Both the position numbers and the translations under genes were made by a program. From contig JAFGCO010000025.1 in NCBI GenBank assembly GCA_016932575.1, forward strand, positions 1 through 34,971: DNA of 34,971 nt, given 5' to 3'. The notes beneath the pieces were generated by a model. It did no database searches. It had not been told where the DNA came from and saw only the letters and a program-made list of their open reading frames with translations. Positions 12,572 to 29,008 of the stretch are shown piece by piece (position 1 is the stretch's first letter; every line of letters begins with the position of its first letter). This DNA is from a bacterium. GTDB taxonomy: Bacteria; Zhuqueibacterota; QNDG01; JAFGCO01.

Positions 12572-14047
12572 TCACTTGTCAAAGATATCCTGATATCGAT
12601 GGCTGGCCTCATCCCAGCGTTCGGTTTTCTGAGGCAGAAACTCTTGCATAGGGAACGCACGGGCGATGAGTGCACGGCCCTGTTCAATGGAGTCCAGTTG
12701 GCCGGCTGCGACCGCCTGGGTGATCACATTACCGAGAGCGGTTGCTTCGACGGGGCCGGCAATTACCGGAATACCGGTCGCGTCGGCTGTAAACTGATTG
12801 AGCATGGCATTTTGAGAACCTCCTCCGACCACATGCAGGATCTCGACGGGTTTCCCCTGAAGATGGTTAATGTCTTCGATCACCTGCCGGTAGCGCAGCG
12901 CGAGACTCTCCAGAATTGAACGGATAAACTGTCCCCGTGTTTCGGGAACCGGTTGATTCGACCGCCGGCAGAATGCCTGGATGGCTTTGACCATATCCGG
13001 CGGGTTCATGAAATCCGGATTATCCACATTAAGCAGGCTTTGAAACGGCGGGCTTTGATCTGCCTCGTTCAGCAGCGATTCATAGGATATGTCCCCGTCT
13101 TTTTGCCACTTCCTGCGGCATTCTTCCACCAGCCACATGCCGGTCACGTTTTTCAGGAACCGGATGGTACTGCGAACACCCCCTTCATTGGTATAATTCC
13201 GTTCCAGTGTGTCCGCGTTGATGAGCGGCGCCTGCAGCTCCACACCCAGCAGCGACCATGTTCCGGAACTGAGATAGGCCCAGGAATTTTTATCAGACGC
13301 AGGCACGGCAGCCACTGCAGCGGCCGTATCATGGGAAGCCGGGGCAATCACCCGCTTGATGGTCAGGCCTGTTTCTTCCCGGATTTCCTGCCTCAAATTA
13401 CCGATTACAGTGCCTGAATCGACAATCTCTGCCATCAGATGCCTTGGTAAATTCAGTTTTTCGAAGATGAGCGCATCCCATTGGCGGGCCTGTGCATTGA
13501 GCAACTGGGATGTGGAGGCGATGGAATATTCGGATCTGCGTTCACCTGTCATCAGAAAATGAAACAGGTCGGGCATGAACAGCAGGGACTCTGCTGCGTC
13601 CAGAACCGGATGCCCGGATTCTACCATACTCAACAGCTGATAGACCGAGTTGAGGGCCATAAATTGTATACCCGTAGCCGAATAAATTTCGGTCCTGGAG
13701 AATTTTTCAAAGGCGATTTCCATCATACCCTGCGACCGGCTGTCCCGATAGCAGTAGGGATTGCACAGGATGACATTATTGCGTCCCACAAATCCGAAAT
13801 CCACACCCCATGTATCCACACCGATCCCGGCAATTTCACGGTGACCGGCGTTTGTAATTTTTGACAAACCGGTTTTGAGTTCGTGAAAAAGCCCCAGAAG
13901 GTCCCACTGATAATGTCCCAGATTCAGGATCTGATGATTCGGAAAGCGATGGATTTCCTTTAGCCGGATGGATCGGTCAATTTCGGCCAGCATGATCCGG
14001 CCGCTCGACGCGCCAAAATCGGCGGCGATGTATTTTTGTGAAGACAT
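12572..14047 (-). CDS. rhaB: Rhamnulokinase (FGGY family)
   Basis: This 491-aa enzyme phosphorylates a ketose at O1 with ATP. It is closer to RhaB than to FucK: the N-terminus has ADFGASSGRIML, followed by the GIGVDTWGVDFGFV, YRDSRSQGM, GIQFMALNSVYQL and MPDLFHFLMTG signatures of rhamnulokinases. The catalytic Asp is in ASHDTAAAV near 237, with YLSSGTWSLLG and HVVGGGSQNAMLNQF (adenosine site) after it. It is the last gene of the BMC array, 224 bp after fucI. With only a fucose isomerase present, it presumably phosphorylates L-fuculose and perhaps L-rhamnulose. AGGGTGA lies just upstream of ATG 14047. The family is certain; the substrate range is inferred. Confidence 0.88.
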   Translation of the reverse strand: MSSQKYIAADFGASSGRIMLAEIDRSIRLKEIHRFPNHQILNLGHYQWDLLGLFHELKTGLSKITNAGHREIAGIGVDTWGVDFGFVGRNNVILCNPYCYRDSRSQGMMEIAFEKFSRTEIYSATGIQFMALNSVYQLLSMVESGHPVLDAAESLLFMPDLFHFLMTGERRSEYSIASTSQLLNAQARQWDALIFEKLNLPRHLMAEIVDSGTVIGNLRQEIREETGLTIKRVIAPASHDTAAAVAAVPASDKNSWAYLSSGTWSLLGVELQAPLINADTLERNYTNEGGVRSTIRFLKNVTGMWLVEECRRKWQKDGDISYESLLNEADQSPPFQSLLNVDNPDFMNPPDMVKAIQAFCRRSNQPVPETRGQFIRSILESLALRYRQVIEDINHLQGKPVEILHVVGGGSQNAMLNQFTADATGIPVIAGPVEATALGNVITQAVAAGQLDSIEQGRALIARAFPMQEFLPQKTERWDEASHRYQDIFDK

Positions 14048-14271: not shown

Positions 14272-16077
14272 CTATCCGTATAACGGACCGAAATTTTTAC
14301 AGGCCCGATAATCTGCACTTTCCAGGTTTTTTGTGCCAAACCCGTTCCATGCGGATGGCCGGAAGATGCGGTCCTCCGGCACATTGTGCATGTTTACCGG
14401 AATACGCAGCATGGCGGCAAGCGTGATCAGTTTATCCCCGATATGGCCATAACTGATGGCGCCGTGGTTGGCTCCCCAGTTCGCCATGACCTGGTACACA
14501 TCCTTAAATGCGCCCTCACCGGTTAAGATCGGTGCGAACCAGGTGGTCGGCCAGGTGGGGCTTGTCCTGCGGTTCAGCTTTTCATGCACATCTTCAGGAA
14601 GATCGACAGTATGGCCCTCGGCGATTTGGAGGACAGGACCCAGTCCCTTGACGAGATTCACCCGGCACATGGTCACAGGCATGTCGCCCTTAGTTAAAAA
14701 TTGGGAAGAAAAACCACCGCCCCGGAAATATTCCAGTTCTGCCGGGCACCATCGTGTGGCTTTCAGGCAGTTCTCTGCCTCTTCCGGTGTGATTTGCCAG
14801 AACGGTTTCATGGCCGGCTTTCCCTCAAGGGTCTGCTGACCGGTTCCATCCAGTGCTGTGGGTCCAGAATTGATCAGATGAATAATGCCTTGCCGGGCCT
14901 TTCCTGAGAGCTCATGTCCGGTCACACGTTTGACAGCAGCCGGGCTCCAGTAGGTTCTGACATCAGAGAAAATTTGCGCCGTATCTGTCAGCAGGTTCCC
15001 GAACAGCATGGCCACACCGTTCAATGAATCATTTTCAGTGGCTACGATATAGGGCTGTCTTATGCCGTTCCAGTCAAAGGAGGAATTCAGAATGGCTTCC
15101 AGAAAATCTCCATTGGGCCAATGATCTGTCCACTGACGCTGGCCCTGAAAACCCGACGCGAGGGCATTATGCCCCAGGGCTTCTTCACCCCATCCCAGTT
15201 TTTCCAAAACCGGATTGCCCGCCATCAGGTCTCGGGCAATGAGGGCCATTTTAACGATGATTTCCCACTCTTCATCTTTACGTTCGCGAGACGATTGTGT
15301 CTCAGGCTTATTGGTATCTTCTCCTTCCTGACAATTGGCTCTGACCCATTTTAATGCTTTTTCAAATTCATCCGGATCGTAAATGCCTTCTTCCATGCGC
15401 CTGATAAACTCCGACATATCCACATATTCATTCCTCATTCCCAGATAATCCGAGAAAAAATGATCGTCTGTCACAGAACCGGCAATGCCCATTGACACAG
15501 AGCCCATGGACAAATAGGATTTGCCGCGCATTTCTGCAACGGCCAGGCCGGCTTTTGCAAAGGCAAGAATTTTTTTCTGCACATCTTCCGGAAGGGAGGT
15601 ATCATTCATATCCTGTACGTCCCGGCCGTAAATGCCGAATGCGGGCAGCCCTTTTTGTGTATATCCGGCCAGGGCCGCGGCCAGGTAGACTGCACCCGGA
15701 CGTTCGGTACCGTTAAATCCCCAGACAGCTTTAGGCATCAGCGGATCTGAATCCATCACTTCTGTACCGTAACACCAGCAGGGCGTTACGGTCAGTGAAA
15801 CACCCACGCTGTTCCGCTGAAATTTTTCAGCGCAGGCGGCAGCTTCGGCCACGCCGCCGATACAGGTGTCGGCAATCACACATTCCACAGGCAGCCCATT
15901 GACATGACGCAACTGCCCGGTTATTAATTTGGCAGCAGATTTTGCCATATTCATGGTTTGATCTTCGAGGGCTTCACGGACACCCTTCCGGCGTCCGTCA
16001 ATCACCGGCCGGATACCGATTTTCGGCAGGGATCCTCTCAGGCGCTGCATGGGTGGATTTTGTTTCAGGCTGGGCAT
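14272..16077 (-). CDS. fucI: L-fucose isomerase
   Basis: This 601-aa cytoplasmic enzyme converts L-fucose to L-fuculose (family also acts on D-arabinose). Length matches E. coli FucI (591 aa). Residues that line up with the E. coli Mn2+ ligands Glu337, Asp361 and His528 are Glu348 ([10 protein letters not shown]), Asp372 ([12 protein letters not shown]) and His538 (WGANHG). The N-terminal [18 protein letters not shown] and the C-terminal [19 protein letters not shown] are also typical. AGGAG lies 6-7 nt before ATG 16077. It is 19 bp after the larA-like gene and surely co-transcribed. No L-rhamnose isomerase is in the window, so fucose is the substrate best supported by the sequence. Confidence 0.93.
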
Positions 16078-16096: not shown

Positions 16097-17374
16097 TTAT
16101 GACTGAACGATGACACTGACGCCATCCGGAATGACCGTAATTTTGGCTCTTTCGCCTTTGATTCTGCGGGCCAGATTCAGTGCATCCTCAATCGTAGGTG
16201 CATGATCCATGTGCATGGCTTTAATCATCTTCGGATCACATCTGTCCGTGACCAGTATCACTTTGAACCGATCCAGGATTCTGGCCAGGATCTGATATTC
16301 CCATTGGTCAGGCACAGTTTCATCTCTGGGAATCTGAAGCGCTTTTTCCAGCACTTCTTTTGGATTTTTTGCACTCGCCATGTTTTGAAAAAAAGATTCA
16401 CCTCCGTGTCCGTCACTGCAGGCAGCAGCCATGACAATCACTCCGTCTTCACTGACCGTGGCTTCTGCTGCCGTCATGCCTTTTACAGACTGGTAAATAT
16501 TCTGATCCAGCGGATATCCGCCATTGGTGGTAATCACAATATCCGCAGGCGCACGATCGACCTGGCACAGGCGGCTTAAAAATGTGCATCCTTCATGATG
16601 GGCCTTTTCCATGTCTCCGGCGACAGCATGAATAATTTCCTTCCTGTGATTGAGAATGACATTCAGGATGAATTTTAAATTGACCTGTCGCGCTGCAACC
16701 ATCATATCCCGGTGAATGGGATTGCCTTCCAGAATGCCGGTCCGGGATTTTTCGCATGCAATGAATTCGGAGCAGTGATTGGCAAGTACGGTTTTGTATC
16801 CGGCCACACCGGGAAGCACGCTTTTCCGCCCTCCGGAATAGCCTGCGAAAAAATGGGGTTCGATAAAGCCTTCGGCTATGAGCAGATCGGTCTTTACTGC
16901 CAGCTTGTTGATCCACAGCTCACCTCCCGAGGGCAGCGTACCCACATAAACCAGGGAATCATCATTTCTCGAGTCGTGAATGACAATCCGTTCCTCAGCA
17001 ACGATTTTTTCTCCGAACAGGGCAGTCATTTCCTCCGGCGTGGTTGACCGATGATAGCCGGTGGCGACCAGAATCGTGATTTCAATATCCGGTGCGCTCT
17101 CTCGTATGCGTTCCAGTAAAATCGGCAGTGTCAGCCAGCTGGGCACCGGGCGTGTGTGGTCGCTGGTAATGAGGGTTATTCGTTTTTTATTTGTGAGCAG
17201 AGATTCCAGTGAGACGCTGCCAATGGGATGATCCAGGGCCCTGTGAACAATCTCGGCCTGGCTCAGACCGGAGTTAAAGGTATTGACTCTGGATTCCAGA
17301 GATCCGGCAACCCGGTCATCCGGAATCTCAACGCGGATATGCGATTTGTGATAAGGAAGATTGAAAACAGCCAT
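16097..17374 (-). CDS. larA: LarA-family nickel-dependent lactate racemase
   Basis: This 425-aa protein belongs to the LarA family, which interconverts L- and D-lactate (and related 2-hydroxyacids) with a nickel-pincer nucleotide bound covalently to a Lys. Counting from ATG 17374, the key residues fall at the same numbers as in Lactobacillus plantarum LarA: His108 (VATGYHR), His174 (EPHFFAGYSGGRK), Lys184 and His200 (LANH). DHTRPVP near 72-78 is also conserved. This match supports ATG 17374 over the TTG four codons upstream. The cofactor-making LarB, LarC and LarE are not in the window and must be elsewhere. Sitting between the acetate-kinase-like gene and fucI, it probably racemises the L-lactate made from L-lactaldehyde. 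Other 2-hydroxyacid substrates are possible in this family. Confidence 0.88.
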   Translation of the reverse strand: MAVFNLPYHKSHIRVEIPDDRVAGSLESRVNTFNSGLSQAEIVHRALDHPIGSVSLESLLTNKKRITLITSDHTRPVPSWLTLPILLERIRESAPDIEITILVATGYHRSTTPEEMTALFGEKIVAEERIVIHDSRNDDSLVYVGTLPSGGELWINKLAVKTDLLIAEGFIEPHFFAGYSGGRKSVLPGVAGYKTVLANHCSEFIACEKSRTGILEGNPIHRDMMVAARQVNLKFILNVILNHRKEIIHAVAGDMEKAHHEGCTFLSRLCQVDRAPADIVITTNGGYPLDQNIYQSVKGMTAAEATVSEDGVIVMAAACSDGHGGESFFQNMASAKNPKEVLEKALQIPRDETVPDQWEYQILARILDRFKVILVTDRCDPKMIKAMHMDHAPTIEDALNLARRIKGERAKITVIPDGVSVIVQS

Positions 17375-17506
17375 AGTTGTTCTCAAAAAATAATGAAACC
17401 CAGGAATCTATTTAAAATACAAAATATTTTTAATATCCAAAACCCAAATATTGCCCGATGAAAATTGAATCTTTTTTTAACTTATATCCCGACTGCTGCA
17501 AAGGGA

Positions 17507-18667
17507 TCAGGCGAGTCGCCTTGCCACTTCCCGTGCCACGATCAGTTCTTCATTTGTGGGAATCACCGCAATTTTTATTTTCGAAATATCGGCGGATATC
17601 AATCCTTCTTCCGGATTGCTTTGATTTTTATCCTGATCCAGAACAATGCCCAGATGATTCATATTTTTCAGGATTTCCCTGCGGAGCCTTGATGAGTGCT
17701 GGCCCGCACCGCCTGTAAATACAATCACATCCGCGCTGTTCAAAACAGCCAGATATTCACCGATATACCGCTTCACCCCATAGGCAAAGGTTTTAAAGGC
17801 CAGTTCAGCTTTGGGATTCTGATCCATTGCTTCCTGAATATCCCGCAAATCTCCGCTTAAACCGGACAGCCCGAGAAGTCCCGCCCTGGAAATGAGACAA
17901 TCCCGCATCTGTTCCACAGAGAGTTTTTCTTTTTCCATAATATAGAGCAGGGCAAACGAATCCAGATCTCCCACCCTTTTGGCATTGATCAGTCCGCACT
18001 GGGCACTCATGCCCATTGAGGTGTCAATCGATTTTCCGTCCCTGATGGCACAAACGGACGCACTGCCCCCCAAATGGCAGGAGATGATTTTATCGGCATC
18101 GTAAACGGATTTGGCACGCTCAGCAATATACCGATGCGAAGCCCCGTGAAATCCGTATTTCCGGACGCCGTGTTTTTCAATCCAGTCATAGGGGACACCG
18201 TACATGGCTGCTTCGGCTGGCATATGCTGATGAAAGTGGGTTTCAAAAAGTCCGATCCTCGGGGTATTCGGCAGGACATTCTCAAATGCTTCGATGGCAG
18301 TGAGATAGACAGTATTATGAACCGGTACCAGAGGGGTATATGCTTTCATTCCATCCAGCACGTCTTTCGTGAGTTCCACACATCCGGTGACGTCTTTTGC
18401 ATGAACGGTCTTAAATCCCACGGCAGCGATTTCGTTCATGGAATATTTCTGCTGAAGGATGTTTGAGATTTGATTTACAGCCGTTATGTAATCGGGAATG
18501 GTCAGTGTTTTTTTCTTCTTATCCGACCTGCCGAATTGCCAGGAAACCGGGCTTTCCTGATCGCCGATTCGTTCCACGGCTGCCTGAAACAGAATGGTTT
18601 CATCTGTCATATCAAAGAGTTTACATTTGTATGATGTGCTGCCGGGATTGGCAATGAGAATTTTCAT
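17507..18667 (-). CDS. ackA: Acetate kinase-like enzyme (putative lactyl-/acyl-phosphate kinase)
   Basis: This 386-aa protein is of the acetokinase family, transferring phosphate from an acyl-phosphate to ADP. Family marks include the N-terminal NPGSTSYK, PVHNTVYL, FETHFHQHMP, YGFHGASHRY, DTSMG, GDLDS and FTGGAGQHSSRLR. Two conserved blocks diverge from ordinary AckA: HLGNGAS reads HLGGSAS, and the PLEGLxMGTRSGD block reads SAQCGLINAKRVGD, although the Arg is kept. In this pathway PduL would produce lactyl-phosphate, so the natural substrate may be larger than acetyl-phosphate; that is inference. AGGAG stands 6 nt before ATG 18667. It may act outside the shell, since no encapsulation helix is visible. 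Confidence 0.88.
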   Translation of the reverse strand: MKILIANPGSTSYKCKLFDMTDETILFQAAVERIGDQESPVSWQFGRSDKKKKTLTIPDYITAVNQISNILQQKYSMNEIAAVGFKTVHAKDVTGCVELTKDVLDGMKAYTPLVPVHNTVYLTAIEAFENVLPNTPRIGLFETHFHQHMPAEAAMYGVPYDWIEKHGVRKYGFHGASHRYIAERAKSVYDADKIISCHLGGSASVCAIRDGKSIDTSMGMSAQCGLINAKRVGDLDSFALLYIMEKEKLSVEQMRDCLISRAGLLGLSGLSGDLRDIQEAMDQNPKAELAFKTFAYGVKRYIGEYLAVLNSADVIVFTGGAGQHSSRLRREILKNMNHLGIVLDQDKNQSNPEEGLISADISKIKIAVIPTNEELIVAREVARRLA

Positions 18668-18818
18668 GGTATCTCCTTATTGGCCCTGTGAAAACATGAG
18701 AAGATTCATTATTTTGCATCTGGAATCATTGGGGTCAGGGGATTATGTTCTGATATTTGAATTATTGGCTGTCTGAAACAGCACGTGATCTTACAACTAA
18801 AATTAACTGTTTCATCCT

Positions 18819-19589
18819 TTATGATTTTTTCAGCCGTTCCATGACCAGCTTGGTAATTTCTGCGATCTGATCCTCACTGGGCCCGACGGATTGTGTTCCG
18901 CTGCATGATCCGTTTTCAGCACATGTGGTGACCCGGCCGGGGATGTTCATTTTTTCCCTGAGGTCCATGAGTTTCTTAACTTCCGGTCCGGGAATCATAT
19001 TCACATTGCCCAGTTGAATGGCGTTGAAAACAATCCTTGCGGAATGCTCCAGAGTTTCCATCCGATGATAGGCATTGATCAAATCGGTTCCAAGTGTAAG
19101 CGCCCCGTGATTGGCCAGCAGAATAGCGTCGCTTTTCTGCAGGTAGGGTTTGATGGAATCCGGAATTTCCATGGTAGATGGAGTCCCATAAGGTGCAATC
19201 GGCACGGCACCCAGGGTTAAAACTGCTTCCGGGAGCACACATTTGTCCAGCGGAATTCCGGCGACGGCAAAACTGGTGCAGACCGGCGGGTGGGCATGCA
19301 CAACAGACCGGATATCGTCCCGCTGCCTGTACACTTCCATATGCATTTTAACTTCACTGGACGGACGGTATGTCTTGGCGGAAGATAAAATTTTACCATC
19401 CATGTTCATTTCAATAATCATTTCCGGTGTCATAAATCCCTTACTGACACCGGTGGGAGTGGTCAACAGGCGGTTGTCATCGATACGTACGGTGATATTG
19501 CCATCGTTGGATGCGATAAACTCACGCTGCCATAACCGTTTCCCGACATCCAGTATCAGCTGTTTGATTTGCCACTCATTTGAAATCAT
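18819..19589 (-). CDS. Class II aldolase with C-terminal encapsulation peptide (fuculose/rhamnulose-1-phosphate aldolase)
   Basis: This 256-aa zinc aldolase cleaves L-fuculose-1-phosphate (and perhaps rhamnulose-1-phosphate) to DHAP and L-lactaldehyde. Glu79, His98, His100 and His161 have exactly the spacing of E. coli FucA ligands Glu73, His92, His94 and His155. FucA is about 215 aa; the extra tail here has a linker with Cys223 and Cys229, then an amphipathic helix of about residues 237-255 (SEDQIAEITKLVMERLKK), which looks like a BMC encapsulation peptide. This places the aldolase, and so lactaldehyde release, in the microcompartment lumen. AGGA precedes ATG 19589. The family and metal site are seen; encapsulation is inferred and agrees with PVM-type loci. 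Confidence 0.9.
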   Translation of the reverse strand: MISNEWQIKQLILDVGKRLWQREFIASNDGNITVRIDDNRLLTTPTGVSKGFMTPEMIIEMNMDGKILSSAKTYRPSSEVKMHMEVYRQRDDIRSVVHAHPPVCTSFAVAGIPLDKCVLPEAVLTLGAVPIAPYGTPSTMEIPDSIKPYLQKSDAILLANHGALTLGTDLINAYHRMETLEHSARIVFNAIQLGNVNMIPGPEVKKLMDLREKMNIPGRVTTCAENGSCSGTQSVGPSEDQIAEITKLVMERLKKS

Positions 19590-19701
19590 TTTTCATTCCT
19601 TTCGACATTTCTTGTTTACTGCAAGGCTATACTGAAAGCCGCTTGGTGTTTTCATTTTGCTGATGTCTCTTTTGCTGAATTGCCTTTACAATTTTCTCAG
19701 G

Positions 19702-19756
19702 TGACGCCGAGGGTCTCCTCCCGGCTGAAAAACATACCGGGACAGGCCTCAGGGGG
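19702..19756. repeat. Intergenic structured repeat, copy A
   Basis: This 55-bp copy lies between the GlcD-type gene and the aldolase gene. It contains TGACGCCGAGG, CCCGG...CCGGG pairing and GGCCTCAGGGGG. It is highly similar, with one 1-nt indel, to copy B at 24483-24536 in the same operon and same orientation. See the finding on this pair. Confidence 0.65.
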
Positions 19757-19763
19757 TAACAGT

Positions 19764-21176
19764 TTAATCAAAGATCTTTCCCGGATTCAGGATAGCACCC
19801 GGATCAAAGACTTTTTTAATTCCGCGCATGAGTTCGATCTGTTGGGGCTCCAGAAATGATTTCAGGTATTCTTTTTTTACGATACCGATACCATGTTCTC
19901 CCGAACAGATGCCTTGATATTTTTTACCGAGATCATGAAGCTCTTTGCGCACGGTCTGATATTTTTCGTCCCAGTTTTCGATTTCATGCCATTCGTCATT
20001 CTGCCATCGATATCGCATCAGGTGTGTATGGACATTGCCATCGGCTGCGTGTCCGTATGTCGGCAGCCACATATCTGACTTTTCAGCCACCGCATTCACC
20101 GAATCCACAAAATGGGCAATTTGAGACCGTGGGACCGTAATATCCAGTATCTCGAGCATATATGGACGCATGGCCTCATAAATACTGCTTCTGATATCCA
20201 AAATATCCCGTTGTTTGGATCTGGTATCAGCGGCAAATACTTCCAGAGCATTATGGTCCAGGCATACCTCGCTGATGGTTTCGGCCAGGCTCATGACCTC
20301 GTCTTCGGAGGTCCCGTCAACGATAATCATCAGGTGTGCGCTGCCCTGCGTACAGGGCCAGGTTTTATTCAGATGCTTGCCGCTTAGAATCGCAGTTTCC
20401 AGCTCCAGAAATTCGACAGCCATGGGCAGTATCTTTTTTTCAATGATTGCCGGCACTGTGCTGATTGCGTCATGCAGATTGTCATACGGCACAACCAGGG
20501 TCATGAGTTCCTTGGGCGGTGCCATGAGGGAAATGGTCGCTTTGGTGATGATGCCCAGTGTGCCTTCTGATCCAATCATCAAATGCATGAGGCTGTATCC
20601 GGTGGAATTCTTTACGAACTTGCCCCCCAAATTGACGATTTCACCGGTGGGGAGCACCACCTCGATACCGGTAACGAAATTTCGAATCACACCGTATTTC
20701 ACGGCCCGGGCACCACCTGCATTGGTGGCAATGACACCGCCGATGGTTGCTGTTTCGTCTCCGGGATGGGGAGGGAAGAATAAGCCCTTTTCTTCGATCG
20801 CCGGATAAAAATCCATAAGCGTCAAACCGGATTCCACAGTTGCCGTCAGATTATGGGTGTCAATTTCCAGGATCTGATGCATATTTTCAAATGTCATGAC
20901 CACACCGCCGAAAACAGGCACACACGCACCGCATAAACCTGTACCGCCGCCGCGGGCTGTGAGAGGGATATTTTCCTGATTGCACAGCTGCACGATTTTT
21001 GATACTGCTTCGGCATCGGGAGGTTTTACCACCACATCAGGATAAGATGAGATGTCATCCAGGCTGTACTCATCATGAGAATAATCAAGCAGTTCATCTC
21101 TTTCCGTTAAAATATTGCGGGCTTCCACAATTGTTTTCAACTGATCGATGATCGACTGATTTATTTTATGATACAT
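19764..21176 (-). CDS. GlcD-type FAD-linked oxidase (probable D-lactate dehydrogenase)
   Basis: This 470-aa flavoprotein is of the FAD-binding type 4 / GlcD family, which oxidises D-2-hydroxyacids such as D-lactate or glycolate. The FAD-binding half has PDVVVKPPDAEAVSKIVQLC, the loop TARGGGTGLCGAC (about 74-86), HPGDETATIGGVIATNAGG and RAVKYG. The C-terminal cap has TYGHAADGNVHTHLM, CSGEHGIGIVKKEYL and FDPGAILNPGKIF. No GlcE or GlcF partner is present, so electrons would go to another acceptor. GGAGG stands about 6 nt before ATG 21176. In this operon the most sensible job is oxidation of the D-lactate made by LarA to pyruvate. The family is certain and the substrate inferred. Confidence 0.88.
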   Translation of the reverse strand: MYHKINQSIIDQLKTIVEARNILTERDELLDYSHDEYSLDDISSYPDVVVKPPDAEAVSKIVQLCNQENIPLTARGGGTGLCGACVPVFGGVVMTFENMHQILEIDTHNLTATVESGLTLMDFYPAIEEKGLFFPPHPGDETATIGGVIATNAGGARAVKYGVIRNFVTGIEVVLPTGEIVNLGGKFVKNSTGYSLMHLMIGSEGTLGIITKATISLMAPPKELMTLVVPYDNLHDAISTVPAIIEKKILPMAVEFLELETAILSGKHLNKTWPCTQGSAHLMIIVDGTSEDEVMSLAETISEVCLDHNALEVFAADTRSKQRDILDIRSSIYEAMRPYMLEILDITVPRSQIAHFVDSVNAVAEKSDMWLPTYGHAADGNVHTHLMRYRWQNDEWHEIENWDEKYQTVRKELHDLGKKYQGICSGEHGIGIVKKEYLKSFLEPQQIELMRGIKKVFDPGAILNPGKIFD

Positions 21177-21227: not shown

Positions 21228-21788
21228 TTACAACAAATCGCGCAACACATCCGGATGCGGATGGGTAATCAGCGTGGATCCTGCAAGCAGCCCTTCTTGC
21301 CTGAGAAATTCCAGGGACGGTCCCAGGGCCGATTTCAATGCATCAATATTGCCGGTCATCACAACCAATCCTTTACCGCCGATGGCCATGGCCACATGGA
21401 TGCGCAGCAGAACAATTTCTGCTTCTTTAACTGCAAAATCGGCCGCTTTGATGGCGGATGCCACAGAGAAGGTTTCAATAACGGCGAGGCCGTCCACTTC
21501 CGGGCTGTCCAGTGTGGTCGTTCCGGCAATGGCGGGAAAAATCCCGGCATCCACATTGGGAATCATCAGCGCGTTCACGATGGCAAATCCGCCTGTTTCC
21601 TTCGCCTGGCGGATACAGGATTCGACATCAGCAATTTCTCCCCGAACCAGAATGATATATTTTCCAGAGCATATCGTCCGGGCGAGCAGTTTTTCTATTT
21701 TTGTCATTTTCAATACGGCATCCTGAACTTCAAATCCTTTATACAGACTGGCGAGTTCAATGACGCCGATGGCGTTGGATGATTTCAT
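21228..21788 (-). CDS. pduT: BMC-T trimeric shell protein, PduT-like, with Fe-S pore Cys
   Basis: This 186-aa protein contains two BMC domains in tandem (about 5-90 and 98-180) and forms trimeric pseudohexameric tiles of the shell. It matches PduT along its length: AIGVIELASLYKGFEVQDAVLK, KLLARTICSGKYIILVRG, and in the second half LAVIETFSVASAIKAADFAVK and THPHP. Cys40 in RTICSGK corresponds to PduT Cys38 in KTICPGK, the residue that holds a [4Fe-4S] cluster in the central pore. Its ATG overlaps the stop of the PduS-like gene (ATGA), so the two are co-translated, as expected for partners in moving electrons through the shell. Confidence 0.93.
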   Translation of the reverse strand: MKSSNAIGVIELASLYKGFEVQDAVLKMTKIEKLLARTICSGKYIILVRGEIADVESCIRQAKETGGFAIVNALMIPNVDAGIFPAIAGTTTLDSPEVDGLAVIETFSVASAIKAADFAVKEAEIVLLRIHVAMAIGGKGLVVMTGNIDALKSALGPSLEFLRQEGLLAGSTLITHPHPDVLRDLL

Positions 21789-23083
21789 GTCTGCCTCTGT
21801 ATGACAATTTCACTTGCATTGATTTCTGTGATGGTTCCATTAACAGATGCATGGACCGGCACAGAAATGTCTCCGTCAGCCTCGGCGATGAGGTCGTTCT
21901 TTTGTACGTTTTGCCCTTTGGACACCACAGGTTTTGCCGGAGTGCCTATATGCTGTTTCAGGGGGATGCGTACTGTATCCGGTTCTATTTTCAGATCGTA
22001 TAACGGACCTTCGTCCCGATAGCGAATCACATCCAGGCGCTGTTTCAATTTTTCTGTCGGCACTTTTCGGAAATCCATCATCGGATGGGATTTTACCGGC
22101 AGCCCTTCCCATTTAGGCATGTCCCGGCTCAGTTTTTTTTCAATCATGGCAGCACCCCTTGGATCCAGACCTTCAGGGCAGCTGTACATGGTACAGAGGT
22201 TGCATTCGCAGCAAAAAGTATTGCCCGGATGCGCATAAGACATTTTCCCGTATGAGAACATACGATTTCGCATGGCGATCTCCGGTCGAACAGGATAACC
22301 CAACAGATATCGCGGACAAAGTTCAGTGCAAAAGCTGCACTGGTCACATGATGCTTTGGCCATGCGGTCTGTCTGAGACGGTGTATCATATCTTTTGTAC
22401 ATTGTCACGCAGGCATGATCGCCGGGGAGCAGAATGAGCCCGCCGGTTGTTTTTGTAATCACGGTTTCCATGCTTGATTCCAGAACACCCATCATTAATC
22501 CGCCGGAGCGTATTTGCACATGCCGGGCAGTGATTTCAACCTGGGATAACACATCTTTCAAAGAGGTGCCCACAGGGATTTTTACAGTAACAGGATTTCT
22601 CACTTCGCCTGCGATGGTAAGAAATTTTTCGGTCACGGGTTCTTCATGTGCCATATTGTACAATGTCTCCACATTCTGGACCACGCAACCGACGCTGATT
22701 GGTAATTCTCCCGGCTGGATGATCCGGCCTGTCGTTAAATAAACCAGTGTGACTTCATCGCCGGCAGGATAAAAATCGTCGATGGGAACAATGTCCATCA
22801 ATTGAGAAATTTTGTTTCTTATAAGGTCAATCAGCTTATGATGTTTCTTTTTGATACCGATAATACCCCGTTTGGCTCCGGTAATAGACAATGCTATCCG
22901 GAATCCCTCCATTACTGTATCTGTAAAATGTCGCAGCAGTTCTTTATCTTTATGCAGCAAAGGCTCACATTCGGCTGCATTCATGATTAAAAACTCGGGA
23001 CTGGCCTTCAGTTTAATATGGGTGGGAAATCCGGCTCCGCCTGCGCCCACGATGCCTTTATTTTTAATGTCCTGAATGGTCAT
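21785..23083 (-). CDS. pduS: PduS-like Fe-S flavoprotein (RnfC/NuoF-related NADH oxidoreductase)
   Basis: This 432-aa protein resembles PduS. An N-terminal glycine-rich loop GIVGAGGAGFPT (10-21), typical of the NADH/FMN-binding fold of complex I NuoF and RnfC, is followed by AAECEPLLHKD, a SLBB-like region, and two [4Fe-4S] motifs: CDQCSFCTELCP (Cys246, 249, 252, 256) and CCECNLCTMYSCP (Cys291, 294, 297, 302). The C-terminal part has a barrel-sandwich domain (IGTPAKPVVSKGQNVQ). In Pdu compartments PduS is a cobalamin reductase. No B12 enzyme is encoded here, so recycling NADH and passing electrons to the PduT pore cluster is the better guess. No clear ribosome site precedes ATG 23083. Confidence 0.9.
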   Translation of the reverse strand: MTIQDIKNKGIVGAGGAGFPTHIKLKASPEFLIMNAAECEPLLHKDKELLRHFTDTVMEGFRIALSITGAKRGIIGIKKKHHKLIDLIRNKISQLMDIVPIDDFYPAGDEVTLVYLTTGRIIQPGELPISVGCVVQNVETLYNMAHEEPVTEKFLTIAGEVRNPVTVKIPVGTSLKDVLSQVEITARHVQIRSGGLMMGVLESSMETVITKTTGGLILLPGDHACVTMYKRYDTPSQTDRMAKASCDQCSFCTELCPRYLLGYPVRPEIAMRNRMFSYGKMSYAHPGNTFCCECNLCTMYSCPEGLDPRGAAMIEKKLSRDMPKWEGLPVKSHPMMDFRKVPTEKLKQRLDVIRYRDEGPLYDLKIEPDTVRIPLKQHIGTPAKPVVSKGQNVQKNDLIAEADGDISVPVHASVNGTITEINASEIVIQRQT

Positions 23084-23095
23084 GGTTTTTTTATA

Positions 23096-23377
23096 TTAAC
23101 ACTTGATATCCCGGTAATCAAGATGATCCACAATAGCGACAATGAGGGTTCGTATGGGGGCCAGATCGAGTTGAAACAGGTCTCTGGCCACACCGGGTGC
23201 ACCTCCGCAAACGACTGTGTCTCCGATTCCGGCACCCACACAATCGACAGCCACCCATTCGTCACCTTTCTCAGTGCCATCCGGCAACACGGGCTGCACT
23301 ATAAATACATGCCGGTTTTGATAGGCGTCATGCTTCTCGGTTGCTGTTACAGTTTTTGTTATTTTTGCAAGAAACAT
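23096..23377 (-). CDS. BMC-P pentameric shell vertex protein
   Basis: This 93-aa protein is an EutN/CcmL-type BMC-P subunit; pentamers cap the vertices of the shell. The N-terminal strand MFLAKITKTVTATEKH, the mid DEWVAVDCVGAGIGDTVVCGGAPGVAR and the final RTLIVAIVDHLDY are typical. It is the most divergent of four paralogues here, with several Cys residues. It begins 5 bp after the previous BMC-P gene and ends 12 bp before the PduS-like gene. Confidence 0.92.
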   Translation of the reverse strand: MFLAKITKTVTATEKHDAYQNRHVFIVQPVLPDGTEKGDEWVAVDCVGAGIGDTVVCGGAPGVARDLFQLDLAPIRTLIVAIVDHLDYRDIKC

Positions 23378-23382
23378 AGGGC

Positions 23383-23646
23383 TTAATCCACATAATCTAC
23401 CAGTTCTACAATAGCTGCATTCACAGGAGCAATTCCTGAGTCAAATGCCTGGGCTGCGTCAGTGCTGGTTACATAGACAATTTTGTCTCCCACACCAGCC
23501 AGATTTTTTGGATCCGCAACGACAAGCGGGTGCCCGGTTTTCTGATTCCGGCCGGTCAGGGGTTGAGCTACAAAAAACCGGCACGATTTTAACTGAGGCA
23601 CCTTATTGGTGGCCCAGACCTGTCCGATGATTTTTCCAAGTTTCAT
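23383..23646 (-). CDS. BMC-P pentameric shell vertex protein
   Basis: This 87-aa BMC-P subunit has the classic pattern: MKLGKIIGQVWATNK at the start, KNLAGVGDKIVYVTSTDAAQAF in the middle and NAAIVELVDYVD at the end. Its ATG overlaps the stop of the preceding 104-aa BMC-P gene by 4 bp (ATGA). This is the closest of the four to canonical EutN and PduN. Confidence 0.93.
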   Translation of the reverse strand: MKLGKIIGQVWATNKVPQLKSCRFFVAQPLTGRNQKTGHPLVVADPKNLAGVGDKIVYVTSTDAAQAFDSGIAPVNAAIVELVDYVD

Positions 23647-23957
23647 TCTGGTTTTTCCTGTTTTTTCTGCGTCGAAACAGCAGCCGGATTTCTGTCGATT
23701 GTAACCTCATCAATCACAGCCATGATCACAGCATCGATGGGTGCATCTTTGGTCAGATCTGTCATTCGGGCGGCCGAACCGTAGGTGAGAAGAACAAAGT
23801 CGCCTTCACCGGCCTGAACCGCGTCTACGGCCACATGATAGGATTGGAGCGGTTTTCCGTTGTGATCCACCTGTTTGCAGAGCAACAGTTTTTTTCCTGT
23901 GAGTTTAGGATCCTTTTGCGTGGAAACCACCGTACCAATGACTTTTGCGAAAATCAT
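23643..23957 (-). CDS. BMC-P pentameric shell vertex protein with polar tail
   Basis: This is a 104-aa BMC-P subunit: MIFAKVIGTVVSTQKD, VAVDAVQAGEGDFVLLTYGSAAR and APIDAVIMAVIDEVTI. About 15 extra C-terminal residues (NPAAVSTQKKQEKPE) are polar and likely disordered. Its stop overlaps the next BMC-P start, so the two are translated together. Tail function is unknown. Confidence 0.92.
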   Translation of the reverse strand: MIFAKVIGTVVSTQKDPKLTGKKLLLCKQVDHNGKPLQSYHVAVDAVQAGEGDFVLLTYGSAARMTDLTKDAPIDAVIMAVIDEVTIDRNPAAVSTQKKQEKPE

Positions 23958-24110: not shown

Positions 24111-24386
24111 CTATTTCTTCCAGGTGGTTTTCAGTTCATCCACAGGTCTGGGAATCACGATTTCGGAAATCAAGTTTCCCACTGATGCGGCTGCAGTTCT
24201 TCCCGCTTCAATGGCTGACCGGACAGCAGCCACTTCGCCTTCAATGACAAAAGACACATACCCGTGCCCGATTTTGCGCCATTCGATCACGTTGACATTG
24301 GCTGCTTTGACGGCGGCGTCTGCGCCTTCAATAAGGCCAACAAATCCGTCGGTTTCAAGAACGCCAATTGATTTAATGGTTGGCAT
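24111..24386 (-). CDS. BMC-H hexameric shell protein (pore motif IGHG)
   Basis: This 91-aa single BMC-domain protein forms hexameric facets of the shell. It has SIGVLETDGFVGLIEGADAAVKAANV, then KIGHGYVSFVIEGEVAAVRSAIEAG, and ends IVIPRPVDELKTTWKK. The pore-loop motif carries His where the other two BMC-H proteins have Ser or Gly, which should alter pore chemistry. AGGAG is 8 nt before ATG 24386. Confidence 0.94.
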   Translation of the reverse strand: MPTIKSIGVLETDGFVGLIEGADAAVKAANVNVIEWRKIGHGYVSFVIEGEVAAVRSAIEAGRTAAASVGNLISEIVIPRPVDELKTTWKK

Positions 24387-25982: not shown

Positions 25983-26276
25983 CTACGCTTTTTTCTCTTT
26001 GGGTTGAATTTCTTTAAAGACCGGAATCAGTTTTTGAGAAGGTCTCGGAATGACTGTCTGGCTGAGCACCTGGCCGATTTGCGAGGCTGATGCCACACCC
26101 GCTTCCACTGCAGCCTTGACCGCCGCGACATCACCTCTTACAATAATATTGGCCTTGCCGCCTCCGGCAATCAGATAATCAGCCAGCTTCACATTGGCCG
26201 CTTTGACAGCTGCGTCGGCTGCCTCAATGGCCGTGGCCAGTCCCATGGTTTCTATAACTCCCAGTGCGTCCTGCAT
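25983..26276 (-). CDS. BMC-H hexameric shell protein (pore motif AGGGK)
   Basis: This 97-aa BMC-H protein begins MQDALGVIETMGLATAIEAADAAVKAANV. The pore region is LIAGGGKANIIVRGDVAAVKAAVEAG, giving a Gly-rich pore. A charged C-terminal tail (FKEIQPKEKKA) extends past the domain. I place the start at ATG 26276, because GGAGG lies just upstream (GAAGGAGGAATCATG) and the 18 extra upstream codons have no BMC similarity. Confidence 0.94.
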   Translation of the reverse strand: MQDALGVIETMGLATAIEAADAAVKAANVKLADYLIAGGGKANIIVRGDVAAVKAAVEAGVASASQIGQVLSQTVIPRPSQKLIPVFKEIQPKEKKA

Positions 26277-26292
26277 GATTCCTCCTTCACGA

Positions 26293-26571
26293 CTATTTTT
26301 TAATTCCGAGCATTTGAAAGACATCCTCATGAGCCGACGGGATCACATTGGAACATATCAGCTCGCCGACTTTGGCGGCTGCTTCTGATCCGGCTTCGAC
26401 TGAGGATTTTACGGCCCCGACCTCACCACGTACAACAGCGGTGACCAAACCGCTTCCGATCTGGTGCTTTCCAACGAGATCCACATTGGCCGTTTTTATC
26501 ATTGCATCTATCGCAATGATATTACCGGTATTGGACCGGGTTTCAACAAATCCTAATGCAACACCTGGCAT
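26293..26571 (-). CDS. BMC-H hexameric shell protein (pore motif IGSG)
   Basis: This 92-aa BMC-H protein begins MPGVALGFVETRSNTGNIIAIDAMIKTANV and has the common pore motif QIGSGLVTAVVRGEVGAVKSSVEAG. The start ATG 26571 is fixed by GGAGG 5 nt upstream. A TTG four codons earlier is unlikely. It begins 12 bp after the small PduM-like gene and ends 16 bp before the next BMC-H gene. Confidence 0.94.
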   Translation of the reverse strand: MPGVALGFVETRSNTGNIIAIDAMIKTANVDLVGKHQIGSGLVTAVVRGEVGAVKSSVEAGSEAAAKVGELICSNVIPSAHEDVFQMLGIKK

Positions 26572-26583
26572 GGCTGCCTCCAA

Positions 26584-26889
26584 TCAGTTGATTGTTATTT
26601 TTATTCTCTTTTCCCTTAATAATTCTCTTGCTTTGGGCGTAATGACAGTTCCTTCGGGGATGACGACTTCTCCTGTTAATTCATGTAGTCTTTGAATATG
26701 ATTTTCAGTCAGGATCGGTGTTTTGTATTTGGACATATCCGGTTTTTCGATCCGCGTCTGATGAATACTGTTTTGGTTTTGTGATGCAAGGGTTCCGTCT
26801 TTTACCAAAATGGTTATATTCTGGCGGCTGAGTTCCCGGATGACTTCACGGGTTATTTTCCGAATTAATTCTTCAATCGCTATCTGCAT
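26584..26889 (-). CDS. Small BMC-associated protein, PduM-like, unknown function
   Basis: This is a 101-aa protein of no family I can name with certainty. Residues 1-24 (MQIAIEELIRKITREVIREL) make a charged amphipathic helix like BMC encapsulation peptides. A polar low-complexity linker (about 32-50) follows. The C-terminal 45 residues (LTGEVVIPEGTVITPKARELL then REKRIKITIN) resemble the ends of PduM and the N-terminal parts of EutT and EutQ, which share a T-P-x-A-x-E-hydrophobic pattern before a short Ile-rich strand. Its place inside the shell operon, 12 bp before a BMC-H gene and 113 bp after a BMC-P gene, supports a role in assembly or cargo binding. No clear ribosome site is seen. Confidence 0.8.
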   Translation of the reverse strand: MQIAIEELIRKITREVIRELSRQNITILVKDGTLASQNQNSIHQTRIEKPDMSKYKTPILTENHIQRLHELTGEVVIPEGTVITPKARELLREKRIKITIN

Positions 26890-27002: not shown

Positions 27003-27290
27003 TTATCTTTTAAACCAGTCTCTTTTTTTGCCTGATACAGTCTCCACGATGCCCACAATCGAATTGTCTGTGCTGGTTCCTTTTGTTTTGGATGTCATCC
27101 TGGCGGATGACGATGAACATACCAGTACAATATCATCCAACCGGGCATTCACAGTATCTGTGCTGGTTATTGTTTTACCGGTGGGCTTCAGTTTTTCATC
27201 CAATTGATCGACAATGAGAAGGCGGAGGCCCTCCAGTTTGCCTTCCTTGCGCGTTGAAACAACCTGACCGATGACTTTTGCGAATTGCAT
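27003..27290 (-). CDS. BMC-P pentameric shell vertex protein with basic tail
   Basis: This is a 95-aa BMC-P subunit: MQFAKVIGQVVSTRKEGKLEGLRLLIVDQLD, TVNARLDDIVLVCSSSSARMT and NSIVGIVETVSG. The C-terminus adds a short basic end (KKRDWFKR). It is separated from the other three BMC-P genes and lies 9 bp after pduL. GAGGG precedes ATG 27290 by about 5 nt. Confidence 0.92.
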   Translation of the reverse strand: MQFAKVIGQVVSTRKEGKLEGLRLLIVDQLDEKLKPTGKTITSTDTVNARLDDIVLVCSSSSARMTSKTKGTSTDNSIVGIVETVSGKKRDWFKR

Positions 27291-27299
27291 GGTACCCTC

Positions 27300-28046
27300 T
27301 TACATTTTGCCCAGAAATTCCGCCTGCATGCCACAAATTGTGCCGGTTGCATTGGCCTCATCCGTATCCAGATGCAGCTGCAGTTTCCATGAATCATTGA
27401 TGCGTATCCGAATGTTTTCATAAACTGTCGGTTTATCTCCATGGAGACGCACGCGGCATAAATCCCCGTCTTTTACGCCCAGTTTTTCTGCGTCGCTGCC
27501 GGGCATATGAATGTGCCGGCTGGCAATGATAGCGCAATGCGGAAGATACACAGATCCGGCAGGGCCCACCAGGGTGAGCGGTGCTGCCCCATCGAGATTG
27601 CCCGAATCATTCACCGGCGGATTGATGCCCAGGACAATGGCATCTGTTTTGGCCAGTTCGACCTGATCATACTGGCGTATAGGACCGAGGATTCGTACGC
27701 TTTGAATTGCACGCATTTTTGCGCCGACAATGGTAACCGTTTGTTTTGCAGCAAAATCATTGGGCTGATACAATTGACGATATTTATCGAGAACTGATCC
27801 TTCCCCGAACAGGTTATCCAGGGTCTGCTGTGTTATATGGATATGACGATTGGAAACTCCCAGCGGAACCATCGGATTGAAAGAAGCCGACGCCGGTGTT
27901 TGATCTTTTTTAAGGGTTCGGACAATTTCTTCAACGACCGTTTCAACAAAACGGGAGTCCATGCCCGAAGCATTCTGATCGGGGAAGCGGGCGGCGCATG
28001 CACCGCATTCCTGACAGTAGGAGGCAAGACCTTTCTGGTTTACCAT
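27300..28046 (-). CDS. pduL: PduL-type phosphotransacylase with Cys-motif N-terminus
   Basis: This 248-aa zinc enzyme converts acyl-CoA and phosphate to acyl-phosphate and CoA, recycling CoA in the lumen. The two PduL beta-barrel halves carry metal ligands SNRHIH (His68, His70), SRHIH (His178, His180) and QLHLD (His225). The N-terminus is unusual: a CX2CX2C motif (Cys11, Cys14, Cys17) comes before a typical encapsulation helix (about 30-47, SRFVETVVEEIVRTLKK). The Cys motif could bind metal or form disulfides; its role is unknown. AGGAT lies 7 nt before ATG 28046, and the gene is 17 bp after sorC. In this pathway its substrate is expected to be lactyl-CoA. Confidence 0.93.
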   Translation of the reverse strand: MVNQKGLASYCQECGACAARFPDQNASGMDSRFVETVVEEIVRTLKKDQTPASASFNPMVPLGVSNRHIHITQQTLDNLFGEGSVLDKYRQLYQPNDFAAKQTVTIVGAKMRAIQSVRILGPIRQYDQVELAKTDAIVLGINPPVNDSGNLDGAAPLTLVGPAGSVYLPHCAIIASRHIHMPGSDAEKLGVKDGDLCRVRLHGDKPTVYENIRIRINDSWKLQLHLDTDEANATGTICGMQAEFLGKM

Positions 28047-28063: not shown

Positions 28064-29008
28064 TTATGTTTCTAATAAATATTCTGCGACTTGTTCATCT
28101 GTAATAAGGACATTGAAGTATCTGCCCAGCAGTCCTGCATGAATCACTGTCTTTTTATCCATTCCTCCGGCTACTGCGATTGCGTGTGAAACATTTTTCA
28201 GATCATTTAATTCAATCGCGACTGTCCGGGCATCCAGTTCCGGCCAGCAAAGATTGCCCTCATTTGAAATCATACGGGAACATATATCACCGACTGCTCC
28301 CAGTTGATTGAGATACTGTACTTCTTCCGGATTAAAATATTCCGCCTGAATCATCAGTGAATCCGGTTTGAATACACCCATTGAACAAAGAATAATATCC
28401 GCCTGTCTGGCAAGATCCATGCTTTCCCTGATTTTTTTATCTGAAATCATGGCTTGTTTCACTTGTGCACTATCCACAATGGCCGGCAGCAGCAGAAGAT
28501 ATGACCGTGCACTGTAATTTTCACTGATACGCTGTGTAATTTCACCTGCATGGGGATCGAACTCGCCATGGGTAATGCCGCCGACGATTTGAATGACTTT
28601 CATATTTTTTACCGGCCTGGGCGTCAGGTGATTCACAACCTGACACATGGTCGTACCCCAGGAAACCCCAAGAATACAATCGTCAAAAATCAGTTCATTC
28701 AGATAACGGGCCGCGGCCCAGCCGAGCCTTTTTTTGGTCTTTTGTTCTGATTGGATATCTGCAGGTACAACGATTACTTTTTTTAAATGATATTTTTCTT
28801 TAAGATTCTGCTCGAGACGGCTTCCTTGACGGGTCGGGTCAATAATTTCAATCCGGACAATTCCCTGATCACGTGCCTGCTGAAGCAGACGGGAGATACT
28901 GGGTCTTGAGGTTCCCAGCCTGTCGGCAATTTGCTGCTGGCTCATCTGATGATCATAATAAAGACGGGCCGTTTCAACAAGGAGTGATGTGTTATTAACC
29001 GAATTCAT
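28064..29008 (-). CDS. SorC/DeoR-type sugar-responsive transcription regulator
   Basis: This 314-aa DNA-binding protein is of the SorC family. The N-terminal helix-turn-helix is at about 22-50 (MSQQQIADRLGTSRPSISRLLQQA). The C-terminal sugar-binding domain has LGVSWGTTMCQVV, IQIVGG, DIILCSMGVF, GAVGDICSRM and the ending AIAVAGGMDKKTVIHAGLLGRYFNVLITDE, which in this family binds phosphorylated sugars. As first gene of the BMC array, 17 bp before pduL, it most likely regulates the array and itself through the TGAAC palindromes at 29019-29053. The effector could be fuculose-1-phosphate or a related intermediate. No Shine-Dalgarno site is seen before ATG 29008. Confidence 0.9.
   Translation of the reverse strand: MNSVNNTSLLVETARLYYDHQMSQQQIADRLGTSRPSISRLLQQARDQGIVRIEIIDPTRQGSRLEQNLKEKYHLKKVIVVPADIQSEQKTKKRLGWAAARYLNELIFDDCILGVSWGTTMCQVVNHLTPRPVKNMKVIQIVGGITHGEFDPHAGEITQRISENYSARSYLLLLPAIVDSAQVKQAMISDKKIRESMDLARQADIILCSMGVFKPDSLMIQAEYFNPEEVQYLNQLGAVGDICSRMISNEGNLCWPELDARTVAIELNDLKNVSHAIAVAGGMDKKTVIHAGLLGRYFNVLITDEQVAEYLLET

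Follow-up and report, generated by a model that had tools for sequence, protein, structure and literature searches.

A nickel-pincer lactate racemase and an LctD-type dehydrogenase in a predicted fucose microcompartment locus suggest a route from L-lactate through D-lactate to pyruvate

PVM and PVM-like bacterial microcompartments (BMCs) are known from Planctomycetota and Verrucomicrobiota (Erbilgin 2014, as related in PMC8857213) and are catalogued in PMC8217296. Published schemes for fucose breakdown in such compartments either stop at L-lactate (PMC8857213) or continue by way of an L-lactate dehydrogenase or the Lut proteins (PMC8706344). A separate precedent is the lct operon (LctA-F) of Acetobacterium woodii, Anaerobutyricum and other clostridia, in which a LarA-type racemase (LctF) and a flavin-dependent D-lactate dehydrogenase (LctD) open L-lactate to a D-specific enzyme (PMC8914356, PMC9232219); Anaerostipes hadrus, which has no racemase, uses D-lactate only (PMC8914356). 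Here we analyze a stretch of 34,971 nucleotides (the window; contig JAFGCO010000025.1) from an uncultured bacterium of the phylum Zhuqueibacterota, which is contig 41 of the 72 in the 4.41 Mb, 94.5% complete draft genome GCA_016932575.1 and carries a BMC locus that also encodes a nickel-pincer lactate racemase (LarA) and a flavoprotein annotated as GlcD. We propose, with a probability of about 0.72, that a fucose BMC pathway is continued here by LarA-catalyzed racemization and LctD-type oxidation of D-lactate, in place of LutABC.

In the proposed pathway, an isomerase and a kinase would form the sugar-1-phosphate, which a class II aldolase would split to dihydroxyacetone phosphate and L-lactaldehyde. 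Inside the shell, a CoA-acylating aldehyde dehydrogenase (ALDH) and PduL would take L-lactaldehyde through L-lactyl-CoA to L-lactyl-phosphate, from which the AckA-family kinase would yield ATP and L-lactate. The next steps would be cytosolic: LarA could racemize the L-lactate, and the D-lactate so formed could be oxidized to pyruvate by the LctD-type flavoprotein, with electrons most likely passing via EtfAB to a membrane Fe-S oxidoreductase and on to quinone. The LarA+GlcD pair would in this way stand in for the LutABC of sister loci. The substrates, the direction of the reactions, the cytosolic location and the electron acceptor in this scheme are those that we infer. Fuculose-1-phosphate and rhamnulose-1-phosphate aldolases both yield L-lactaldehyde; hence the stereochemical premise, which the original prediction had based on a fuculose aldolase, holds independently of which sugar is used.

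What can be read from the DNA itself is the gene content, the protein families, the cofactor genes, the lactate-type pocket of LarA, the LctD ancestry of GlcD and the distribution of LutABC as against LarA+GlcD. It is the last of these, the replacement of one module by another at a single step, that provides the strongest support for a lactate switch. By the presence of PduL, 48 of the 82 genomes of the phylum have BMC or related loci, and 40 PduL-bearing stretches were examined. LutABC genes lie downstream of AckA in at least four sibling BMC loci, and probably in six, the Lut-bearing stretches being inside or beside fucose BMC loci (L202, L185, L182, L206, L192 and L235). Three of these genomes have loci of the same type as the window: G041 shows the order AckA-LutA-LutB-LutC; G009 has AckA-LutA up to a contig end, with LutB-LutC opening another contig and the linkage thus partly inferred; and in G004 the kinase is followed by LutC and an LdhH-like fusion. 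The LutB of G041 scores above the LutB/LldF cut-off, while the LutA of G009 and the G004 protein match LdhH below cut-off. A second locus type has Lut genes downstream of AckA in G068, G027 (on the opposite strand) and G025 (fragments of LutA and LutB only). LutB/LutC domains are present in four of five sibling genomes of the window type, but none was detected anywhere in the assemblies of the window genome, G013 and G014; no examined locus holds both LutABC and LarA+GlcD. Together these observations make it look as if LarA+GlcD replaces the direct oxidation of L-lactate by LutABC at the same pathway step.

The flavoprotein consists of FAD_binding_4 and FAD-oxidase_C domains, and its best match among solved structures, at 411 bits and 43% identity, is LctD from the Ldh-EtfAB complex of A. 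woodii, as against 235 bits for a glycolate oxidase. Glycolate oxidase was rejected as its identity, since TIGR00387, with its cut-off of 568 bits, scores only 347 and LctD matches better. In a tree of 73 sequences, the GlcD proteins of the window genome, of G013 (from the same order) and of a third genome, G014, form one clade (support 1.0) within the LctD group (0.998). The protein retains R329, D345, H376, H383, E427 and H428, the counterparts of the metal-binding and catalytic residues R328, D346, H377, H384, E422 and H423 of A. woodii LctD, whose roles in holding the metal and activating lactate have been described (PMC9232219). Another genome of the order, G015, shows an open reading frame (ORF) arrangement EtfB-EtfA-LctD, the Etf subunits being assigned from sequence only. 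The original designation as a GlcD-type D-2-hydroxyacid oxidase thus fits as far as a D-lactate dehydrogenase clade is concerned, but the enzyme is not of the glycolate-oxidase type and two of its pocket residues are changed; LctD-type dehydrogenase should be the better name.

LarA contains full-length Lar_N (E=1e-70) and LarA_C (E=3e-74) domains and scores 644 bits against the NCBIfam lactate racemase profile NF033504 (cut-off 460). The listed ORF (16097-17386) opens with TTG; the ATG at 17374 is a better start, from which the 425-residue product aligns from residue 1 with solved LarA structures (2yjg, E=8e-158; 5huq, E=1e-148). With this start, D72, R75, H108, H174, K184, H200, Y294, Q295 and K298 fall at canonical LarA numbers, as the original prediction had stated for its key residues; R75, H108, H174, K184, H200 and K298 among them are the residues that bind the nickel-pincer nucleotide or act in catalysis, by the criteria of PMC7583248 and PMC11770544. 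The selectivity positions are F175, F176, W358 and E359, in agreement with the lactate-racemase signature F175, F176, W358 and E/Q/T359 (PMC11770544). By profile and pocket signature it is a predicted lactate racemase of the LAR group. Malate racemase and hexonate epimerase were ruled out as identities for this protein; such signatures are instead found in two paralogs in the same genome, one malate-racemase-like (Y, F, H, K) and one gluconate-epimerase-like (E, V), at L060:9625-10878 and L061:8906-10156. The cofactor genes, whose absence the original prediction had named as fatal to it, are all encoded elsewhere in the genome above NCBIfam cut-offs, larB adjoining larC and larE lying apart. 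The larBCE genes, the LarA pocket, the LctD clade and the LutABC pattern accordingly favor the predicted conversion of L-lactate through D-lactate to pyruvate.

The placement of the pair in a PVM-like locus, first proposed from the window alone, is borne out by domains, strand and synteny. In G013 the gene order is identical, with about 65-91% protein identity, and LarA and GlcD (81-84% identical) are placed co-directionally in the BMC array, GlcD being flanked by BMC-T and the aldolase and LarA by the kinase and the isomerase. G014 has the same parts over two contigs, one ending within GlcD and the other starting within the aldolase, which we take to join into one locus; its LarA is inverted between the kinase and the isomerase. 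The recurrence of the locus in G013, and of its parts in G014, indicates that the arrangement is neither chance nor an assembly artefact. Adjoining the inverted LarA of G014 is a 418-residue ORF without a Pfam family (L044:4430-5686). Across the phylum, LAR-type LarA is found in four of 82 genomes, inside the BMC locus in three of them and standing alone in the fourth (G041).

The surroundings of 155 other LarA genes were also examined; these come mostly from clostridia, selenomonads, Planctomycetota and Verrucomicrobiota, and among them are eight matches in Planctomycetota (six of 392 genomes) and most of those in Verrucomicrobiota (62 of 387 genomes). The DNA examined around them contained neither shell genes nor PduL; one of these stretches (L066) is the G014 contig, on which only the enzyme-coding part of the BMC locus lies. 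Of the 155 stretches, 55 contain a GlcD-like gene, in line with what lct operons would lead one to expect. A linkage between LarA and BMCs as a general trait thus finds no support in this set, and the LarA+GlcD module probably entered the BMC locus once. In a different BMC locus, that of G066 (L188:2221-4606), a LarA of the SAR type (signature L, M, W, Q) is encoded 410 bp upstream of PduL, possibly a second, independent association of a racemase with a BMC.

Segments resembling encapsulation helices are seen in PduL (residues 30-45), ALDH (6-21) and the aldolase (240-255), and the catalytic domains of PduL and ALDH begin late. For LarA, GlcD and the kinase, alignments with homologs from outside BMCs run over the full length, with no added terminal extensions, and these proteins are therefore most simply regarded as cytosolic; LarA and GlcD probably act outside the shell. 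A hydrophobic-moment scan by itself fails to separate helix-bearing from extension-less proteins. Distant from the locus, the genome encodes a single EtfB-EtfA pair and, next after it, a membrane protein that combines CCG, Fer4 and NarI-like domains; these could pass electrons from GlcD to quinone. EtfA has no ferredoxin domain and EtfB retains only part of the DGDTAQVGP bifurcation motif; hence, confurcation is not indicated. An improbable elaboration is that the BMC-linked GlcD is a specialized D-lactate dehydrogenase whose pocket is distinct (Tyr333, His385) and which works with a PduS/BMC-T conduit or with EtfAB and the membrane Fe-S protein, such that lactate oxidation and re-oxidation of shell NADH share one electron sink.

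Several points weigh against the proposed switch. The mutual exclusion of LutABC and LarA+GlcD is by itself not significant (about p=0.2, calculated by hand), and in another seven BMC loci that have both FucA and AckA, the DNA examined contains neither of the two. The search for L-lactate dehydrogenases that found no LutB/LutC domain in the window genome did not extend to LldD and NAD-dependent enzymes. The monophyly of the three GlcD proteins means that their co-occurrence with LarA may count as one event, and the grouping of LarA with that of G014 has only moderate support (0.83). The window has no EtfAB, and the two LarA paralogs mean that larBCE need not serve the LarA of this locus. Finally, the pocket residues Leu332 and Tyr386 (LctD numbering) are replaced by Tyr and His in all three BMC GlcDs, setting them apart from 47 canonical LctD-like sequences, so that the substrate may have shifted.

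These substitutions, together with the long stem branch of the clade (0.60), speak for the alternative that GlcD oxidizes L-lactate itself, or another 2-hydroxyacid such as glycolate or glycerate, with LarA serving lactate homeostasis or a side reaction instead of being an essential link. We give this a small but real chance, given that the catalytic and metal-binding residues are kept, that enzymes of the GlcD/LctD flavin family are, to our knowledge, D-specific, and that LarA accompanies GlcD in all three loci while LutABC is absent from these assemblies. It is quite unlikely that LarA instead acts on glycerate, 2-hydroxybutyrate or a similar acid in the catabolism of another sugar: some LAR-group enzymes do act on or favor these two compounds (PMC11770544), but this protein has the F/F/W/E signature of lactate racemases, is far over the NF033504 cut-off, and is encoded in a locus whose own pathway makes lactate. 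Very unlikely is the view of LarA and GlcD as passengers, an ordinary lactate-utilization island adjoining the BMC operon with no link to its pathway, because, common as such neighbors are outside BMC loci and despite the solitary LarA of G041 and the inverted one of G014, here both genes are interleaved co-directionally with BMC genes, well conserved in G013, and matched by LutABC in the corresponding role in sibling loci. The racemization of L-lactate by LarA followed by LctD-type oxidation of D-lactate is thus the reading we prefer.

The locus as a whole is one co-directional minus-strand array (29008 to 12572) in the order SorC regulator, PduL, BMC-P, a 101-residue protein, two BMC-H, ALDH, BMC-H, three BMC-P, PduS-like protein, BMC-T, GlcD, class II aldolase, AckA-family kinase, LarA, L-fucose isomerase and FGGY kinase (Table 1). 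A complete PVM-like set (aldolase, acylating ALDH, PduL, kinase, BMC-H and BMC-P) is thereby found in one locus. The aldolase falls under all NCBIfam equivalog cut-offs and the FGGY kinase is closer to rhamnulokinase; the predicted microcompartment would serve L-fucose, and perhaps L-rhamnose too.

Table 1. Genes of the predicted microcompartment locus, with coordinates in the window
Feature	Coordinates	Strand	Evidence
FGGY kinase, rhamnulokinase/fuculokinase-like	12572..14047	-	TIGR02627 512 bits, slightly below cut-off 528
L-fucose isomerase	14272..16077	-	TIGR01089 1058 bits vs cut-off 850
larA, predicted nickel-pincer lactate racemase, 425 aa	16097..17374	-	NF033504; F175 F176 W358 E359; PDB 2yjg
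Acetate/propionate-family kinase; would form L-lactate from lactyl-phosphate	17507..18667	-	PF00871; TIGR00016 above cut-off
Class II aldolase, fuculose/rhamnulose-1-phosphate type, C-terminal helical extension	18819..19589	-	PF00596; amphipathic segment 240-255
glcD/lctD-like FAD-dependent D-2-hydroxyacid (lactate) dehydrogenase (predicted)	19764..21176	-	LctD of A. woodii 43% identity; LctD clade
BMC-T shell protein	21228..21788	-	two BMC domains, PF00936
PduS-like flavin/Fe-S protein	21785..23083	-	Complex1_51K, Fer4_17, RnfC_N
BMC-P pentamer shell protein	23096..23377	-	PF03319
BMC-P pentamer shell protein	23383..23646	-	PF03319
BMC-P pentamer shell protein	23643..23957	-	PF03319
BMC-H shell protein	24111..24386	-	PF00936
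CoA-acylating aldehyde dehydrogenase, BMC type, N-terminal helix	24543..25970	-	NF011927 592 bits vs cut-off 403; amphipathic segment 6-21
BMC-H shell protein	25983..26330	-	PF00936
BMC-H shell protein	26293..26583	-	PF00936
Small conserved BMC-locus protein	26584..26889	-	no Pfam family; tblastn matches in sibling loci
BMC-P pentamer shell protein	27003..27290	-	PF03319
PduL phosphotransacylase, N-terminal extension	27300..28046	-	PF06130 from residue 62; NF011652 above cut-off
SorC/DeoR-type sugar-binding regulator	28064..29008	-	PF04198

The 101-residue protein has the strongest N-terminal amphipathic segment of the locus and is 38-65% identical to its counterparts in sibling BMC loci; it is possibly a scaffold or cargo adaptor. 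The BMC-T protein beside the PduS-like protein (21228-23083) contains a Cys in the motif RTICSGK, like the PduT-type Fe-S shell proteins; the two might form an electron conduit across the shell, although the locus has no B12 enzyme. Outside the array, the window encodes a fusion of an amino-acid permease with an EIIA-type domain of the phosphotransferase system (2702-4582) and, near the contig end, a tyrosine recombinase of the phage-integrase family (477-1367).

If the proposal holds, one BMC pathway in one phylum would have two endings, L-lactate oxidation by LutABC and nickel-dependent racemization coupled to D-lactate oxidation. It would extend the fucose-BMC pathway beyond excreted lactate to pyruvate, connect the breakdown of methyl-pentoses in these organisms with their supply of nickel, and predict genomes able to oxidize lactate rather than only excrete it. 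It would also give a physiological setting to one LarA, in a superfamily many of whose members have no known role. We found no paper in the open-licence literature linking a lactate racemase to a bacterial microcompartment, in keeping with the original prediction, which knew of no described pathway of this kind. A racemase/LctD module within a BMC locus thus seems to be new; as clostridial lct operons already contain the pair (PMC8914356), this applies only to its use in a BMC locus.

Like the PVM BMC, the window locus combines shell proteins, class II aldolase, acylating ALDH, PduL and a kinase, fitting the route from L-fucose through L-lactaldehyde to L-lactate (PMC8857213); unlike it, the locus has a PduS-like protein, BMC-T and the LarA+LctD pair. 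It shares that pair with the lct operon but differs in having no linked EtfAB (LctBC) or lactate permease, in the lactate being made intracellularly by the predicted BMC pathway, and in a GlcD pocket altered at two positions. With LutABC/LldEFG, its counterpart by position in sibling BMC loci, it would share the same net task of converting L-lactate to pyruvate; those, however, are unrelated Fe-S proteins that are directly L-specific and need no racemase.

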